A stretch of 64,000 bases of DNA from an uncultured Pelagibacteraceae bacterium (GTDB lineage Bacteria > Pseudomonadota > Alphaproteobacteria > Pelagibacterales > Pelagibacteraceae), in assembly GCA_902593905.1 (NCBI GenBank), contig CACJKF010000001.1, forward strand, positions 248,001 through 312,000. The letters run 5' to 3'. A program made the position numbers and the translations under genes. The notes below the pieces were generated by a model. The model made no database searches, was not told where the DNA came from, and saw nothing but the letters and a program-made list of their open reading frames with translations. This document shows positions 8,300 through 26,779 of this stretch, one piece after another. Every line of letters begins with the position of its first letter. Positions within the stretch are counted from its first letter, which is position 1.

Positions 8300-9629
8300 A
8301 TTTTGCTCCTAAATGCTTAATTATTTTTAAAAAAGAAGGTGAAGAAGTAAAAACAGTTTCAAAATTTTTTATTTTAGTTTTGGCACCTGTCAATATAGCC
8401 AAAATGAAAGAGCTCATTGCTATACGATGATCCCCTAAATTACTTACGTTTACCGTCTTATTTTTTGCTGTGATCATGCCCTCTCCAAAAATTTTAATTT
8501 GATTTTTTTTGTAAATAGATTTCACTCCTATTTGTTTTAAGATCTTTTGCATTTCTGTAATACGGTTACTCTCTTTATTTGCTAAATCACTAATTCCTTT
8601 AAATATTGAAACACCTTTCGTTAAAGCTGCCAAAATAAACATAATAGGGTATTCATCTGTAGAGTTCACATAATAACTCTTCGGAGCATTTAAAGATTTC
8701 AGTTTACAACTTTTAACATGTATGTCACCTCTTAACTCATTATTGTTTTTGGTAATTTTTTTAAATTTTATATTCGCACCGTTTTTTTTTAGTAAATTAT
8801 AAAATCCTATTCTTGTTGGATTTAATCCAACATTCTGAATTGTCAGTGATGATTTCTTATTTAATAATGTTAAAGCAGTAAAAAAAGCAGCTGAGGATGG
8901 ATCACCTGGCACAACAATATTAATGGGGTTTAAATATTCTCTCCCTTTAATCTTAATTATTTTTTTTTTTCCTTTTATGATTTTTATTAATTGAGAATTA
9001 TTTAAAATCATATTTTCAGTATGATCTCTACTTTTCTCTTCTTCAATTACTTCAGTATTTCCATATGAGTTAAGTCCAGCTAATATTACCGCACTTTTTA
9101 ATTGAGCTGACACTCCTGCTTTATATTTAATTCCAATAGGCATTTCACTAGATATAAGCCTTAAAGGAAAATTAAATTTATTTTTGGGTTGAAAGGTTGC
9201 TCCATATTCTGACATAAGTATTTGAATTTTTTTCATACTTCTTTTATTCAAAGAATGGTCGCCAGTAATTTTGACATCTATATCTGGCGTTGTAGAGAGT
9301 ATTCCTATAATCAGTCTTGCTAATGTGCCAGAGTTTCCAAAGTTTAATTTTGTATTTTTTTTGGCGTACAAAGATCCTAGTCCCTTCCCGTAAATTGCAT
9401 AAGATCCAGAACTTTTCCTTAAAATTTTCACGCCTAGTTTTTTTAAACAGTTTATTGTTGATAAAACATCCTCAGATTCTAAAACATTTTTTGTATGAGA
9501 AATATTTTGACAAATAGAGCCAATTAAAAAACTTCTTATAGAGATTGATTTATCTGAGTCAACTTTTATGATTTTTTTAAATGGCTTTATCTGAGTATGA
9601 ATTGATAAATCAAAACTTTTTAAAGACAT
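8283..9629 (-). CDS. aroA: 3-phosphoshikimate 1-carboxyvinyltransferase (EPSP synthase)
   Basis: LNFGNSGTLARLIIGIL, VPGDPSSAAFF, NLGDHRIAMS. Confidence 0.95.
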   Translation of the reverse strand: MSLKSFDLSIHTQIKPFKKIIKVDSDKSISIRSFLIGSICQNISHTKNVLESEDVLSTINCLKKLGVKILRKSSGSYAIYGKGLGSLYAKKNTKLNFGNSGTLARLIIGILSTTPDIDVKITGDHSLNKRSMKKIQILMSEYGATFQPKNKFNFPLRLISSEMPIGIKYKAGVSAQLKSAVILAGLNSYGNTEVIEEEKSRDHTENMILNNSQLIKIIKGKKKIIKIKGREYLNPINIVVPGDPSSAAFFTALTLLNKKSSLTIQNVGLNPTRIGFYNLLKKNGANIKFKKITKNNNELRGDIHVKSCKLKSLNAPKSYYVNSTDEYPIMFILAALTKGVSIFKGISDLANKESNRITEMQKILKQIGVKSIYKKNQIKIFGEGMITAKNKTVNVSNLGDHRIAMSSFILAILTGAKTKIKNFETVFTSSPSFLKIIKHLGAKFDIKN

Positions 9630-9634
9630 TAGTT

Positions 9635-10390
9635 TTAAGAAAATTGTGATCCGAAATAATGTTCTATAGCCTTCGAAGATTTCAATAATTCTCTTGATGT
9701 TCCTTCAGCAATAATTGTTTGTTCTCCTAAAACGTAACTTCTATCTGTAATATCAAACAAATTTTTAACATTATGATCTGTGACTAGTATCGCCGTGCCA
9801 TTAGACTGAATTTTAAGTATATATTTTTGTATATCTTGTATCACAAGAGGGTCAAGCGCAGCTAAAGGTTCATCTAACAAAACTATTTTCGGTTTGTTAA
9901 TCATCACTCTTGCCATCATTAATCTTCTTATTTCACCCCCAGAGAGAACTGAAGCATTAAGCGTCCTTAAGTGCTGTAAATTAAATTCGTCTAATAATTT
10001 TTCAGTAATTTCTTTTTGGTTTTCACTTCCTTGTATCGAAATTTGAGCGATGCCCATAATATTATCATAAACAGACATATTAAACACACTCCTTTGCTGA
10101 GGAAGGTAGCCCAATCCCTCTTTAGATCTTAAATGAATAGGAATTTGCTCTATAGATTTATTATTTAGAAAAATTTTTCCATTATCAACGTTTTGTTCAC
10201 CTATACACATTGAGAACAGAGTAGTTTTTCCGCATCCATTAGGGCCTAGTACTCCAACACACTCACCTGGAAATACTTTGAGAGTAAGCTTTTTTAAAAT
10301 TGGTCTTCCATCAAAAGATTTACTTACATCCTTAACTTCGAAGATTGGTCTATCTTTTTTAAATTTTAATATTCTAAAACCTTTTTTCAT
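9635..10390 (-). CDS. lptB: LPS export ABC transporter ATP-binding protein
   Basis: LGPNGCGKTTLF Walker A, LSGGEIRRLMMARVM, ILVTDHNVKNLFDITDRSYVL. Confidence 0.92.
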   Translation of the reverse strand: MKKGFRILKFKKDRPIFEVKDVSKSFDGRPILKKLTLKVFPGECVGVLGPNGCGKTTLFSMCIGEQNVDNGKIFLNNKSIEQIPIHLRSKEGLGYLPQQRSVFNMSVYDNIMGIAQISIQGSENQKEITEKLLDEFNLQHLRTLNASVLSGGEIRRLMMARVMINKPKIVLLDEPLAALDPLVIQDIQKYILKIQSNGTAILVTDHNVKNLFDITDRSYVLGEQTIIAEGTSRELLKSSKAIEHYFGSQFS

Positions 10391-19119: not shown

Positions 19120-19257
19120 ATGGCAAAAAAAAAATATCAAAGAAATTGGTTAGAGAGAAAACTTGATGAATATAACCATACAATGGAGCTGATTAGAACT
19201 ATCCTACCTTTTTTAATACTTTTGCTACAAATTTACATACTAACGAAACTCATTTAA
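19120..19257 (+). CDS. 45-aa single-TM small protein (below the ORF-track cutoff)
   Basis: ATG...TAA, MAKKKYQRNWLERKLDEYNHTMELIRTILPFLILLLQIYILTKLI*; basic N-terminus plus hydrophobic C-terminal helix, in an otherwise empty gap. Confidence 0.5.
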   Translation: MAKKKYQRNWLERKLDEYNHTMELIRTILPFLILLLQIYILTKLI

Positions 19258-19288: not shown

Positions 19289-19531
19289 ATGACTTTATTG
19301 TTTTTATCACTAGCAGGCATCATTGCTATCATTGTTATTCTTGTATCAGCCAAATTTATTAAAGCTGGGTTTGATGCTAGAGGTGAGGTTAAAGAGGAAC
19401 AAAGAAAAGAGAAACTCAAGCAAGAGGACGAAGATATTTTAGATGAATTAAAAAGAAAAGATCTTTCTGAGGAAGACTTAAAAGATCTTTACGATAAAAT
19501 TCAGAATAAAAAAAAAGATGACAATGAGTGA
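19289..19531 (+). CDS. 80-aa small membrane protein with highly charged tail; possible detached PhoR membrane anchor
   Basis: One N-terminal TM (LLFLSLAGIIAIIVILVSAKFI) then K/E/D-rich helix; overlaps phoR start in a different frame. Confidence 0.7.
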   Translation: MTLLFLSLAGIIAIIVILVSAKFIKAGFDARGEVKEEQRKEKLKQEDEDILDELKRKDLSEEDLKDLYDKIQNKKKDDNE

Positions 19532-20558
19532 GTCTTTAAAAGAGATTAAATTTCTAAATGATTTACCTGACCAAGTTATAGTAATAGATAAATTTAAAAC
19601 AATTAACTTTGCAAATAAAAGCGCTAAAACTCGTTTTGGATCTAATATTGAGAGTCAAAATATTTCAAGTATTGTTCGTGATGCTGAATTGTTGGATCAG
19701 ATCGATAAATCATTGGAAAAAAATCAAGGCGGGATCTTGGATATTGAAATTAAGGCACCTAATTTCCAATATTATAAAGTAAGTGTCATGCCTGGACCTA
19801 AAAATTTATTAAATACGAGTGATAGTGTAATAATCTTTTTTAAAGATTTGACTGATATCATTAAAGTTCAAAAACTCAAATCCGATTTCGTTGCGAACGT
19901 CTCTCACGAACTAAGAACGCCTTTGCAAAGTATTAAACTTGGCCTTGAAACAATAAATAATGGTCATGCGTCTAAAGATTTAGAAAGTCAAAAAAAAATA
20001 TTACCAGTTGTTCTTCAGCAAACCTCAAGGATGGAAAGTATTGTAAATGATCTTTTATCTCTCTCAAGAATAGAACTTCAAGAACATATAAGACCGAGTG
20101 AAAAAGTGGATTTAAATGAGATTATTTCTCACTCAATTGATTTAAATAAAGAAATAATAAAAAAAAATAATATGAGCTGTAGTTTCGATAAACAATCAGA
20201 CAATATAAAAATTAATGGTGATAGAAACAGGTTAATTGAGGTTTTTAATAATCTTATAGATAATGCAATAAAATATAGTGAAAAAAATAAGAAAATAAAA
20301 ATAACTACTAAATCTAAAGATAATAATTTTCATGCAATAGTCGAGGATGAAGGTATTGGGATATCTAAAGAAAACATACCCCAAATAACTGAGAGATTTT
20401 TTAGGGTAAATCCTGCTAAAAGCAAAGAAGTTGGAGGAACTGGTTTAGGTTTAGCAATAGTAAAACATATAGTGAATCAACATAGAGCAGAAATGTCTAT
20501 AACAAGTGAATTAAATAAAGGTACCCGTATTTCCTTAGTTTTTCCAATCAGTTTATAA
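19518..20558 (+). CDS. phoR: phosphate regulon sensor histidine kinase PhoR (PAS-HisKA-HATPase; no TM segment in this ORF)
   Basis: LPDQVIVIDKFKTINFAN PAS, FVANVSHELRTPLQSIK H-box, N/G boxes GTGLGLAIVKHI; start could be 19518 or 19524. Confidence 0.9.
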   Translation: MTMSESLKEIKFLNDLPDQVIVIDKFKTINFANKSAKTRFGSNIESQNISSIVRDAELLDQIDKSLEKNQGGILDIEIKAPNFQYYKVSVMPGPKNLLNTSDSVIIFFKDLTDIIKVQKLKSDFVANVSHELRTPLQSIKLGLETINNGHASKDLESQKKILPVVLQQTSRMESIVNDLLSLSRIELQEHIRPSEKVDLNEIISHSIDLNKEIIKKNNMSCSFDKQSDNIKINGDRNRLIEVFNNLIDNAIKYSEKNKKIKITTKSKDNNFHAIVEDEGIGISKENIPQITERFFRVNPAKSKEVGGTGLGLAIVKHIVNQHRAEMSITSELNKGTRISLVFPISL

Positions 20559-20597: not shown

Positions 20598-20661
20598 TTT
20601 GTTTAATAAATCAATAACTTCGAAAGATTACATTCTAGCCATGTTTAATAAGGAGATAAAT

Positions 20662-21678
20662 ATGAAAATAATAAAAAACATAGTAGCAGTTATTGCTATT
20701 CTTTCTTTTGCTTCATACGCACAAGCAAGAGACCAAATTAAAATTGTAGGTTCTTCAACAGTTTACCCATATGCAACAGTAGTTGCTGAAAAATTTGGAA
20801 AACAAGGTAGTTTTAAAACCCCAGTAATTGAAAGTACTGGTACTGGTGGTGGAATGAAATTATTTTGTGCTGGTATTGGAGTAAACCACCCAGACATCAC
20901 TAATGCTTCAAGAGCAATTAAATCTAAAGAAAAGGCTCTATGTGAAAAAAATGGTGTAAAAGATATAATCGAAGTAGTTGTAGGAAATGACGGTATAACA
21001 TTTTCTCACTCAGTAAAATCACCTGACGCAAATTTCACAAAAGAGCAACTTTGGAGAGCTTTAGCAGCGAAAGTAGATGTTAATGGTAAATTAGTAGAAA
21101 ACCCATATAAAAAATGGAGTGATATAGATGCAAGTTTACCTAGCAAGAAAATTGAAATCTTAATTGCACCCCCAACATCTGGAACAAGAGATGCTTGGAA
21201 TTCATTGGTAATGAATAAAGGTTGTTCAAAAGAAGCTAAATCTTTATTTGGTGATAAATCTAAAAAAGAATGTGCAAAAATGAGAGAAGATGGTTACGCG
21301 GTTGAAGCAGGTGAAAACGACACTTTAATTGTACAAAAACTTGCAGCAAATCCTGATGCTTATGGTTTCTTTGGCTATAGTTATTATTTAGCAAACAAAG
21401 ACAAAATAAAAGCAGCGGCTATCAATGGGGTAAAACCTTCATTAGAAGGGATTCAAGATTATTCTTATCCAATAGCAAGACCATTATTCTTTTATGCAAA
21501 GAAAGCTCATGTTGGAGTAGTCCCTGGTCTGAAAGAATTTTTAGACGCATTCACTTCAAAAAAAGCTATGGGATCTAGAGGTTACTTAACTGATATTGGA
21601 TTAGTGCCACTAGCTAGCGATAAATATAAAGTTACTAGAACTGCAGCAAAAGACTTAGTTACAATCAACCTCAAGTAA
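20662..21678 (+). CDS. pstS: phosphate ABC transporter substrate-binding protein
   Basis: KIVGSSTVYPYATVVAEKF, APPTSGTRDAWNSLV; start at MKIIKNIVAVIAILSF (signal peptide) preceded by AGGAG at about 20651, not track start 20599. Confidence 0.93.
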   Translation: MKIIKNIVAVIAILSFASYAQARDQIKIVGSSTVYPYATVVAEKFGKQGSFKTPVIESTGTGGGMKLFCAGIGVNHPDITNASRAIKSKEKALCEKNGVKDIIEVVVGNDGITFSHSVKSPDANFTKEQLWRALAAKVDVNGKLVENPYKKWSDIDASLPSKKIEILIAPPTSGTRDAWNSLVMNKGCSKEAKSLFGDKSKKECAKMREDGYAVEAGENDTLIVQKLAANPDAYGFFGYSYYLANKDKIKAAAINGVKPSLEGIQDYSYPIARPLFFYAKKAHVGVVPGLKEFLDAFTSKKAMGSRGYLTDIGLVPLASDKYKVTRTAAKDLVTINLK

Positions 21679-21694
21679 CAGTTGTTAATTAATG

Positions 21695-21727
21695 AAAAAA
21701 AGGCCGATTATTCGGCCTTTTTTTTTA
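21695..21727 (+). terminator. intrinsic terminator after pstS
   Basis: AAAAAAAGGCCGA TTAT TCGGCCTTTTTTTTT. Confidence 0.9.
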
Positions 21728-21750
21728 TTCTCAATTTAAAGTTTAAATAT

Positions 21751-21769
21751 TTAACAAATCTGTAACATT
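21751..21769 (+). promoter_or_regulatory. candidate Pho box upstream of pstC
   Basis: TTAACAAATCTGTAACATT: AACA repeated with 11-nt period. Confidence 0.45.
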
Positions 21770-21788
21770 ACTCATCTACATAAAGGTC

Positions 21789-23168
21789 ATGAATTCTTTA
21801 ATTGCGGGAGTAATTTTAATTCTCTGCCTTTCAAGTTATTTTTTCGGTAGATCTGAAGCTCGTAAGTTAGTTACTCAAAATATTAAACTAAAAGCGCTTC
21901 CCGCTTATTACGGTTATTATTTATCTCTATGGTGTGGCTTACCGGCATTAATTATTTTTGGATGTTGGTCACTGTTTGAACCTACAATAATCAAAGTCTT
22001 GATACTTAATAATTTTCCTCAAATTGAGTCTAAAGACTTATTTTATGAGCAAACATTATCATTTTTTAATGGAAATTTTTCAGGTGAGATCACAAATGAA
22101 ATTAAAGCAGCTTCAATAAAGTACTCTTCAATTAATATTATTGCTCAAAATTCAAAAATTGTAATTATAGCTGCTGCGTTAATTGGCTCTCTAACTTTTG
22201 CATACAGAAAAATTCAAAATAACAATAAAGCCAGAGATGATGTTGAGATAATACTAAAAGTTTTATTATTTACCTCTTCTTTAGTAGCAATTTTGACAAC
22301 AGTAGGGATAATTGTATCTCTGTTATTTGAAAGCCTAAAGTTTTTTTCTACGATAAACATATTCGAATTTATATTTGGTACCTCTTGGAGTCCTCAACGT
22401 GCTTTCGTAAGGGATGCATCTGCTATTACTCCTGAAGAACTTTTAGAGCTTCAAGATGCTTTTGGTTCTGTGCCTTTATTTGCAGGTACCGCATTCATCG
22501 CCTTAATTGCAATGTGTGTGGCTGTTCCAATAGGTTTATTTTCTGGAATATATTTAGCTGAATACGCTTCAACGAAAGTTAGAAAATATTCCAAACCAAT
22601 TATTGAAATCTTAGCTGGTATACCAACTGTGGTTTACGGTTTTTTTGCTGCTTTAACTGTTGGACCTTTCTTTAGAACCCTTGGTGAGAGTTTAGGTCTC
22701 ACTGTTTCATCAGAAAGTGCACTAGCAGCTGGATTGATTATGGGAGTTATGATTATTCCTTACATATCTTCTTTATCTGATGATGTAATAAATTCAGTTC
22801 CACAATCCTTAAGAGAGGGCTCTTACGCAGTAGGCGCTACCAAATCCGAAACAATAAAAAAAGTTGTAATACCAGCAGCTCTACCGGGAATAATTGGATC
22901 TATTCTTTTAGCGGTCTCAAGAGCTATTGGAGAAACTATGATTGTAGTGATGGCTGCAGGTTTAGCTGCAAACCTGACTATAAATCCTCTTGAGTCCACT
23001 ACAACCATCACAACTCAAATTGTTATGATATTGGTGGGAGACCAAGAATTTGACAGCCCTAAAACACAAGCTGCATTCGCATTAGGATTAACATTATTTA
23101 TCGCAACATTAATTTTAAATTATATCGCTCTGAGAGTTGTTAAAAAATACAGAGAAAAATATGACTAA
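21789..23168 (+). CDS. pstC: phosphate ABC transporter permease PstC
   Basis: IEILAGIPTVVYGFFA, permease EAA-type loop; long N-terminal extension. Confidence 0.93.
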   Translation: MNSLIAGVILILCLSSYFFGRSEARKLVTQNIKLKALPAYYGYYLSLWCGLPALIIFGCWSLFEPTIIKVLILNNFPQIESKDLFYEQTLSFFNGNFSGEITNEIKAASIKYSSINIIAQNSKIVIIAAALIGSLTFAYRKIQNNNKARDDVEIILKVLLFTSSLVAILTTVGIIVSLLFESLKFFSTINIFEFIFGTSWSPQRAFVRDASAITPEELLELQDAFGSVPLFAGTAFIALIAMCVAVPIGLFSGIYLAEYASTKVRKYSKPIIEILAGIPTVVYGFFAALTVGPFFRTLGESLGLTVSSESALAAGLIMGVMIIPYISSLSDDVINSVPQSLREGSYAVGATKSETIKKVVIPAALPGIIGSILLAVSRAIGETMIVVMAAGLAANLTINPLESTTTITTQIVMILVGDQEFDSPKTQAAFALGLTLFIATLILNYIALRVVKKYREKYD

Positions 23169-24423
23169 AGAACAAAGGTTAAAAAAAAGATATAGAGCAG
23201 AAAAAAGATTTAAGATGTACGGCTTAATCTCTGTCAGTTTAGCAGTTATCTTTGTATTAATTCTTGTACAAAATATTTTTTCTAAGGGAAGTTCAGCTTT
23301 CAGTAGAACGATGATAGAAGTGGCAGTAAATTACGACTCCTCTCTTCTAGAATTAGAGGGTCCAATTAATCAAAATTCTCTTAAAGATGCAGATTTCTAT
23401 GATTTAGCTGTAGAAAGTCTTTTGAAAATATATCCTGCAAAAGACTCTAAAGAGGAAAGACAAATTTTAAGATTATTTAGCCCTGATTACGAATTTGAGA
23501 TTAAAGATTTTTTAATTAAAAATCCGAATAAAATTGATCAAATTGTTCCAGTTAAAATCACAGCATCCGATGATATTGATCAGCTGAATAAAGGAAATTT
23601 TCCTAGAGATTTACCAGAGGACAGAAGACGAGTTAGCAATTATCAATTAAATATTTATGACAATTTAATTGAAAAAGAAAAAATTGATAAAAAGTTTAAT
23701 AATTATCTTTTTACCAAAGGAGATTCTAGAGATCCTGAGTTAGCTGGTATTGGCGGTTCTTTAATGGGATCATTCTTTACAATTATAATTTGTTTAATCT
23801 TGTCTTTCCCAATAGCTATAATGGCTTCAATTTATCTGGAAGAGTTTGCTCCAAAAAATAAAATAACCGACTTTATAGAAATTAATATTAATAATTTAGC
23901 AGCAGTACCATCAATAGTTTACGGTCTTTTAGGTTTAGGAATATTATTAAGTGTAATGGAATTTCCTAGGTCTACCCCATTAGTTGCAGGAATTACATTA
24001 TCTCTAATGACTTTACCGAGAATAATAATTCCATGCAGAGCATCATTAAAAGCAGTTCCACCCTCGATAAGAGAAGCAGCATTATCAGTTGGAGCTTCAA
24101 AATTTCAGACAGTGTTTCATCACGTTGTTCCACTAGCTATGCCAGGAACTTTATCTGGAACAATAATTGGTCTAGCTCAAGCTTTAGGAGAAACCGCTCC
24201 TTTAATTCTTATTGGGATGGTCGCTTTTGTAGTTGATATTCCAAGTTCACCAGTTGATCCATCAGCATCTTTACCAGTACAGGTTTACTTATGGTCTGAG
24301 CAAGCTGAGAGAGGATTTGTGGAAAAAACGTCGGCAACAATTATGATGTTGCTTGGCTTTCTTATTGTAATGAATTTCATTGCCGTTTATCTTAGACAAA
24401 AATTCGAAAAAAAATGGAATTAA
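23161..24423 (+). CDS. pstA: phosphate ABC transporter permease PstA (with N-terminal DUF3333-like extension)
   Basis: [47 protein letters not shown]; start set at [11 protein letters not shown] overlapping the pstC end. Confidence 0.93.
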
Positions 24424-25187
24424 ATAATTCAAAAATAAAAATAAAAGCAAAAAACTTAAATGTTTATTACGGAAAAAAACAAGCTTTATTCGATATTAAT
24501 TTAGATATTAATCAAAAGGAAGTAACAGCATTAATTGGTCCATCAGGATGTGGTAAGTCTACATTTATAAGATGCATTAATAGAATGAACGATGTAATTG
24601 ATATTTGTAAAGTAGAAGGGTCTGTTGAAATAGACGGAGCTGAAATTAATGAAAAAAATGTTGATGTAGTTACACTTAGAGAAAAAGTGGGAATGGTGTT
24701 TCAAAAGCCAAATCCTTTTCCAAAAAGTATTTATGATAATATTGCTTATGGCCCAATTATACATGGCGCTGCTGAGAACAAAGATCAAATGGATAACATA
24801 GTTGAGACAAGTTTAAAAAAAGCAGCTCTTTGGGATGAAGTAAAAGATAGATTAAATGAGCCTGGCACAAGTTTGTCAGGGGGGCAACAACAAAGACTTT
24901 GTATTGCTCGAGCACTATCGGTTAATCCAGAAGTAATTTTAATGGATGAACCTTGCTCTGCTTTAGATCCAATCGCTACCGCGAAAATAGAGGAATTAAT
25001 AGATGATTTAAAAAAAAGCTACACAATTGTAATTGTTACGCACTCAATGGCACAAGCAGTAAGAGTTTCACAAAAAACAGGTTTTTTTCATCTTGGAAAA
25101 ATAATAGAAGTAGATTCAACGGATAAAATATTTAAAAATCCGGCTAATAAAATGACGCAAGATTATATTACAGGGAGATTTGGATAA
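24414..25187 (+). CDS. pstB: phosphate ABC transporter ATP-binding protein
   Basis: [57 protein letters not shown]. Confidence 0.97.
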
Positions 25188-25883
25188 ATGTCTGGAACAG
25201 GCCATACAGTAAAATCATACGAAGAGGAGATGCAAAGCCTAAATGATAATCTTGTAATGATGGGAAGTCTTACAGAAAATCAGATGGCAGATGCGATGGC
25301 AGCCGTTATTAAAGTTGATAAAGAATCAGTAGACAAGATTGTAAAAAATGACGGAAAAATAAATGAATTAAGATCCACTATTGATAATCAAATCACAACT
25401 GTTTTAGTGAAAAGAGCTCCAATGGCAGTTGATTTAAGAATTACTATTTCAACGATGAAAATTTCACATGATTTAGAAAGAATTGGAGACCTAGCGAAAA
25501 GTGTTGCTAAAAAAGTCAAACCGCTACCAGTAGATTTACCTAATGAACTTATAGGAAGCCTTAGAAGGTTGGGAGATTTAGTACAAAAACAATTAAAAGA
25601 TGCTCTAGACGCTTATCTAAATAGATCAAAAGATAAGGCAATTGAAATTTGGAAAAAAGATGAACAAGTAGATGATTTGACTAATTTAGCTATGAATGAA
25701 GTTGCAACTTATTTACAAAAAGACAAAAAAAATTTAGAAATGGCAACACATTTATTATTTGTAACAAAAAATATAGAAAGAGCTGGAGACCATATAACTA
25801 ATATTGCCGAGTCTCTTTATTATTTAATTGAAGGCGAATATCTTGAGGGAGCAAGACCAAAAGGTAAACCTGTAGAAAGTTAA
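25188..25883 (+). CDS. phoU: phosphate transport system regulatory protein PhoU
   Basis: DLRITISTMKISHDLERIGDLAKSVAKK, KNIERAGDHITNIAE. Confidence 0.95.
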   Translation: MSGTGHTVKSYEEEMQSLNDNLVMMGSLTENQMADAMAAVIKVDKESVDKIVKNDGKINELRSTIDNQITTVLVKRAPMAVDLRITISTMKISHDLERIGDLAKSVAKKVKPLPVDLPNELIGSLRRLGDLVQKQLKDALDAYLNRSKDKAIEIWKKDEQVDDLTNLAMNEVATYLQKDKKNLEMATHLLFVTKNIERAGDHITNIAESLYYLIEGEYLEGARPKGKPVES

Positions 25884-26566
25884 TGAGCGCCCATATTTTT
25901 GTTGTAGAAGATGAAAAGCCAATTTTAACACTTCTTACTTATAATCTCCAAAAGGAAGGATATAAAGTATCCTCTAGCTCCAATGGAGAAGAAGCTCTCT
26001 CGAGTATAAAAGAAAAAAAACCAGACCTTGTTTTGTTAGATTGGATGTTACCTGATTTATCTGGAATAAAAATTTGTCAATATTTAAAACAAGATGAAAA
26101 AGTAAAAAATATACCTATCATTATGCTTACGGCAAAAGGTGAAGAGGAAGATAAAGTTAAAGGACTTAATACTGGCGCAGAAGATTACATGACAAAGCCC
26201 TTCAGTTTTCCAGAGCTTTTAGCGAGAATAAAATCTTTATTAAAAAGAGTTAAACCTAATATTGTAAGTGAAGAGGCTACTTATTTAGATCTTAAAATAG
26301 ATAGAGAGTCTATGAAAGTATTTAGGAAAGAAAAAGAAATTACTTTAGGTCCTAAAGAATATAAATTACTTGATTTTTTAATTAAGCAACCAAAAAGAGT
26401 GTATTCAAGAGAGCAGTTGCTAGAACATGTTTGGGGAGATGATATTAACGTGGAGTCTAGAACAGTAGATGTTCATATTACCAGATTAAGACAATCAATA
26501 AACATTGAAGGGGCTAAACCTTTAATTAGAACTGTCCGTTCAGCTGGGTATTCTTTAGAAAATTAA
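25883..26566 (+). CDS. phoB: phosphate regulon response regulator PhoB
   Basis: Receiver domain (VVEDEKPI, DLVLLDWMLPDLSG) plus winged-helix output (TVDVHITRLRQSI). Confidence 0.93.
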   Translation: MSAHIFVVEDEKPILTLLTYNLQKEGYKVSSSSNGEEALSSIKEKKPDLVLLDWMLPDLSGIKICQYLKQDEKVKNIPIIMLTAKGEEEDKVKGLNTGAEDYMTKPFSFPELLARIKSLLKRVKPNIVSEEATYLDLKIDRESMKVFRKEKEITLGPKEYKLLDFLIKQPKRVYSREQLLEHVWGDDINVESRTVDVHITRLRQSINIEGAKPLIRTVRSAGYSLEN

Positions 26567-26779
26567 TTGATAAAACCCTATTAAAAATAAAGGAATTTGT
26601 AATCCGAAGTTTGTAAGAATAGCTTTATCTTTTGATAAAAAACCAGCTATCGTCCAGCCTACAACTCCAGCACCATGGAACATTATATTTACTGGATAAA
26701 TATTTAAGTTAGTTAATAGTATTCCCGTTAAGACTAAAAAAGTACTTAACCACTTAAGGTATTTTTTAATAAATTCCAT
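26555..26779 (-). CDS. small membrane protein of unknown function (74 aa)
   Basis: Two to three predicted TM segments; ORF abuts gcrA and fills the gap. Confidence 0.65.
   Translation of the reverse strand: MEFIKKYLKWLSTFLVLTGILLTNLNIYPVNIMFHGAGVVGWTIAGFLSKDKAILTNFGLQIPLFLIGFYQLIF

Follow-up and report, generated by a model that had tools for sequence, protein, structure and literature searches.

Is the membrane-free PhoR kinase encoded at this locus one half of a gene that was broken at a run of nine adenines, or do the two overlapping ORFs found here have separate histories? The window analysed is the whole stretch of 64,000 nucleotides taken from contig CACJKF010000001.1 of an uncultured Pelagibacteraceae bacterium. 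The initial annotation described a PhoR apparently divided at the A9 run into an 80-aa protein with one transmembrane (TM) helix and a soluble PAS kinase. When the sequence was re-read, the ORF coordinates, the position of the A9 run, the frame overlap and the lack of a membrane segment in phoR were all as described there. The notion of a split PhoR seems to invert the history of the locus, and the best reading is quite probably that of an old, resident microprotein gene standing next to a cassette with a soluble PAS kinase, the two being probably translationally coupled.

The 80-aa ORF contains a single strongly hydrophobic helix with a Kyte-Doolittle peak of 2.96 in a 19-residue window, and lies behind ugpBAEC, a glycerophosphodiesterase-like gene and an ORF of 45 aa. 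The phoR ORF is in frame +1 relative to it and, counted from the first ATG, the overlap is 14 nt. Comparison with relatives gives the second ATG as the conserved phoR start, which shortens the overlap to 8 nt. In the downstream cassette, phoU and phoB were identified by NCBIfam, and the pst genes by sequence and order. The positions of all features are listed in Table 1.

Table 1. Features of the phoR locus, in positions of the 64,000-nt window.
Feature	Position	Strand	Remark
Gene of resident TM-SHOCT-like protein (80 aa, single TM)	19289..19531	+	Followed in relatives by the kinase, the PiT-like gene or gcrA
TM helix and juxtamembrane SAKFIKAGFDAR motif	19295..19381	+	Module common to fused PhoRs; from hydrophobicity and alignments
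Predicted C-terminal helix-turn-helix tail of the microprotein	19424..19516	+	SHOCT-like by position and pattern; from AlphaFold and Pfam
A9 run	19508..19516	+	Varies among relatives with the same arrangement
Stop-start overlap, 8 nt, ATGAGTGA (ATGAATGA in sister species)	19524..19531	+	Fits translational coupling
phoR, TM-free PAS-HisKA-HATPase kinase	19518..20558	+	Probable start 19524 (second ATG)
HisKA domain of PhoR	19878..20075	+	Residues 121-186
HATPase_c domain of PhoR	20217..20549	+	Residues 234-344
pstS-pstC-pstA-pstB-phoU-phoB, remainder of the exchangeable cassette	20599..26566	+	

The kinase resembles classical PhoR (TIGR02966 / NF008235) in its order of domains, with a weak match to PAS (E 0.0076) followed by HisKA (E 2.5e-18) and HATPase_c (E 1.1e-27), and in its operon context of pstSCAB, phoU and phoB. 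TIGR02966 (phoR_proteo) is also its best NCBIfam match, with E 7.6e-88. It differs from that family in that the chain begins at the PAS domain, without a hydrophobic N-terminal segment, and neither an N-terminal TM helix nor a charged region was found in it; also, its score of 294.7 bits misses the curated equivalog cut-off of 334.2. A fused PhoR from the window genus is likewise under this cut-off, with 295.8.

The arrangement was followed through 169 species of the window genus (g1). Incomplete assemblies from single cells or metagenomes make up most of these genomes, so that absence of a gene from one of them is weak evidence, and a pattern over 41 genomes is stronger. Full-length kinases at least 68% identical to that of the window are present in 14 species, and in all 14 a separate ORF of the microprotein family is placed immediately upstream on the same strand. 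Kinases of at most 54% identity lie in fused frames of at least 387 aa in 66 of 68 cases, and the other two are truncated. An anchor-like microprotein beside a TM-free PhoR is a genuine and conserved arrangement, and on this point the initial annotation was right. A single-base assembly error in one genome, one of the readings it had offered, is refuted already: 14 species have the same two ORFs, as do 15 separately assembled loci compared with the window, and the probability of this reading is negligible even though homopolymers are error-prone. One record in the comparison, L116 (LUQC01000062.1), is labelled as Rhodobacteraceae REDSEA-S34_B6 and carries the SAR11 locus; it looks misbinned.

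The junction of the two ORFs was compared between the window and 15 separately assembled loci. Four near-identical genomes, including that of the window, share the A9 run at constant length together with the 8-nt overlap ATGAGTGA. In six sister loci the run is A6 or A8 and the overlap reads ATGAATGA; the A8 arose by substitution and not by an indel. Five loci have a junction without an A-run and a TTG start one base past the TAA stop, and the isolate HIMB058 has a TAATG overlap in frame +2, where dropping one A would still leave the two ORFs in different frames. No indel difference that would fuse the frames was found at any of the compared junctions, and the slippery run that a programmed frameshift would use is not conserved there.

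The A9 run does sit at the junction and, as was noted initially, deleting a single A would bring both ORFs of the window genome into one frame, but as a signal it carries little: 26 runs of at least nine A are placed inside intact ORFs, across the 58 ORFs of at least 150 aa in the window, two of them within phoR itself (at 19990 and 20159). The missing Shine-Dalgarno sequence ahead of phoR, which had been taken as a telling sign, was rejected as evidence, since SD-like 4-mers precede only 7 of the 58 listed starts in the window. With A-runs so frequent in intact ORFs and SD-like motifs so rare, both features are ordinary here. Slippage at A9, programmed or random, was proposed to yield an anchored and a soluble PhoR by frameshifting or phase variation; given the constant A9 in the near-identical genomes and the different junctions of their sisters, it is very improbable.

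The microprotein gene also exists independently of the kinase. In 40 of the 41 species of the window genus that have a PiT-like gene, the standalone microprotein gene adjoins it, tail to tail, and the PiT-like gene occupies the position of phoR-pst-phoB at the same site. No PhoR match at 1e-40 was found in these 41 species, and within the genus PhoR and the PiT-like gene are mutually exclusive. Median dN/dS is 0.118 for 39 microproteins of the PiT type and 0.114 for 13 adjacent to the kinase, which indicates purifying selection in both settings. The possibility that the standalone ORF is a decayed remnant was rejected on the dN/dS of about 0.12 and on the lack of internal stops in the 52 sequences compared. 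That the microprotein is kept where PhoR was not found suggests an additional role. Weak matches to it in family f2 are unrelated proteins.

The neighbour in these 41 species is a multi-TM protein of 322 aa (in L108 at 9241-10206, minus strand) with the motifs ANDSIQTLGT and SHDVANIAV, and is 89-100% identical across the genus. It is not recognised by Pfam, where PHO4 is reached at E 0.3 only; no match was found in PDB or in 76 genomes of the class, and its AlphaFold model, built on a shallow alignment, has a pLDDT of 34. The putative designation PiT-like is by motif, with support from a report on pitA, according to which many offshore Pelagibacteraceae lost pst and phoR yet keep pitA (PMC12636525).

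In genus g6 of the same family, the NDUFA9-like gene and gcrA-argD-argF flank an orthologue of about 90 aa, which shares the helix and the juxtamembrane pattern K-x-I-x-x-G-x-x-A-R, with hhalign probability of 98% over 41 columns. Pfam recognised SHOCT in ten out of ten g6 orthologues, and SHOCT (PF09851) is absent among the families listed for 12 members from g1 and g9. AlphaFold predicted for the 80-aa protein, with modest confidence (mean pLDDT 67), helices at residues 2-54 and 61-78. In this it may resemble the small membrane proteins with SHOCT (PF09851; PMC3581485), which have one TM helix and a C-terminal helical hairpin; unlike in those, the tail in g1 has diverged and is not called by Pfam. 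TM-SHOCT ORFs or SHOCT tails are present in 111 of 119 g6 genomes, but six further examples that were inspected lie at other sites. PhoR of g6 is coded at another locus and bears a different helix. An upstream half left by a split gene would be expected only in or beside the kinase; here it stands without a PhoR match in 40 species of the PiT type and, in g6, as the orthologue described above. Together with the A9 run that sister lineages do not conserve, this speaks against a PhoR split at the A-tract.

Among the species of the window genus that bear PhoR, most carry a pst cassette of a different type, and their PhoR is fused, with about 398 aa. This protein shares with the locus of the window a homologous TM-juxtamembrane module, the PAS and kinase domains and the same hotspot, but is one polypeptide, lacks the SHOCT-like tail conserved in the standalone proteins, and belongs to a cassette whose phoU is about 43% identical. 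The hotspot is situated between the NDUFA9-like gene and gcrA, with the microprotein gene as its left edge. In g1 and g9, the fused as well as the unfused forms that were examined share this one hotspot, which ends at s74 and gcrA.

The fused genes of relatives point to capture of the helix. The first approximately 120 nt of phoR in G293 match the standalone microprotein gene of G355, a member of the same genus as G293, at 98-100% identity, while the remainder is 92-100% identical, mostly at least 97%, to the fused phoR of the window genus. Judged by these identities, G293 PhoR is a clean DNA chimera, with the direction from microprotein to kinase. The first 60 nt of phoR in G015 are 95% identical to a standalone gene of the PiT type, and the microprotein of HIMB058 resembles the fused N-terminus of G031. 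The three resemblances imply more than one capture or swap of the helix, and on this sequence evidence some fused PhoRs of relatives got their membrane helix from the resident microprotein gene. G150 (L239) has a standalone microprotein as well as a fused PhoR 4 kb further on; the two are separated by an incomplete second NDUFA9-like gene, which resembles a recombination scar.

A PhoR without TM helix is not restricted to this locus. The complete genome of G198 (g6) codes for one without an adjacent microprotein, head to head with a PiT-like gene; the pair (L238) is placed at a different chromosomal site. Family f2 has TM-free PhoRs too; those that were read follow an exopolyphosphatase-like gene, directly so in L048, L049 and L051. 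Within the order, a soluble PhoR thus occurs repeatedly, and a TM-free PhoR lacking the 80-aa ORF, which the initial annotation had itself named as contrary to its reading, is found in G198 and in family f2. SenX3, the mycobacterial orthologue of PhoR, still senses Pi after deletion of its TM part when PAS is intact (PMC12301784). That form from Mycobacterium smegmatis is likewise a soluble PAS kinase of PhoR type, but a laboratory truncation and not a natural TM-free kinase.

On the reading that the comparisons support best, the 80-aa gene is old and independent, coding for a predicted small inner-membrane protein with a TM helix, a charged juxtamembrane helix and a SHOCT-like helical tail, and forms the left edge of a hotspot for phosphate genes. 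In the window clade, a cassette phoR-pstSCAB-phoU-phoB with a kinase devoid of a TM segment lies directly behind it. The microprotein would be a small membrane protein synthesised on its own, and phoR would be translated from its overlapping start, probably coupled to the microprotein. The kinase is most likely a soluble, cytoplasmic PAS histidine kinase and may be under control of PhoU and Pst. The resident helix has, in sister lineages, become fused to the N-terminus of the PhoR in the same hotspot, or been exchanged with it.

A true gene split would put the order of events the other way: a PhoR that was fused in the ancestor would have been divided a single time, in this clade, into an anchor gene and a kinase gene, and the anchor would have stayed behind when the PiT-like gene replaced the cassette. 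The homologous helix in fused PhoRs and the wide distribution in the family of PhoRs with an N-terminal helix agree with such a history, and so does the kinase-core tree, in which the window-type kinases with two ORFs form one clade with support of 100/99. The conserved tail of the standalone protein, predicted to be helical and missing from the fused forms, and the g6 orthologue, which occupies the same site and has a true SHOCT tail while PhoR of that genus lies elsewhere with another helix, weigh against it and make it rather unlikely. In the tree of the whole cassette, the window clade is sister to the TM-free G198 and the fused G234 and G354 (g9), but the join has a modest support of 86, and the tree cannot show whether the ancestral kinase of the clade had a TM helix.

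The resident-microprotein reading is compatible with a bipartite receptor as an added step, in which the microprotein would bind the soluble kinase and anchor it at the membrane or signal to it, like a fused PhoR in two chains. Such binding is plausible since relatives have both in one fused protein, a 'Rosetta stone' pattern, and their genes are adjacent and overlapping in all 14 species. On the other hand, adjacency alone could yield fusion, the microprotein is under purifying selection also where PhoR was not found, and the closest TM-free PhoR, that of G198, has no microprotein beside it; the receptor is a possible but doubtful proposal. A wider reading is equally tentative: the hotspot may hold most of a design series of PhoR, with the soluble form behind the microprotein and the helix captured or swapped repeatedly, the soluble form alone occurring elsewhere in the order, and the microprotein of the window may be the membrane subunit of a bipartite PhoR with its tail docking to PAS.

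These arrangements indicate that a textbook sensor kinase can do without its membrane part, or exchange it, in bacteria that rank among the most abundant of the ocean. The closely related natural variants, with the helix free, adjacent or fused, represent a set for testing whether PhoR needs the membrane. The locus also marks a precise hotspot for swaps in SAR11 between the PhoR/Pst cassette and the PiT-like gene, in agreement with PMC12636525.

Two further small ORFs were noticed. The 45-aa ORF (19120-19257 in the window), which has the glycerophosphodiesterase-like gene on one side and the microprotein gene on the other, codes for a single-TM protein with 91-100% identity in most relatives that carry ugp, and is present in two copies in G024. 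On the opposite strand, an ORF of 74 aa (26555-26779) overlaps the end of phoB; nearly all relatives conserve it where the hotspot ends on the right.
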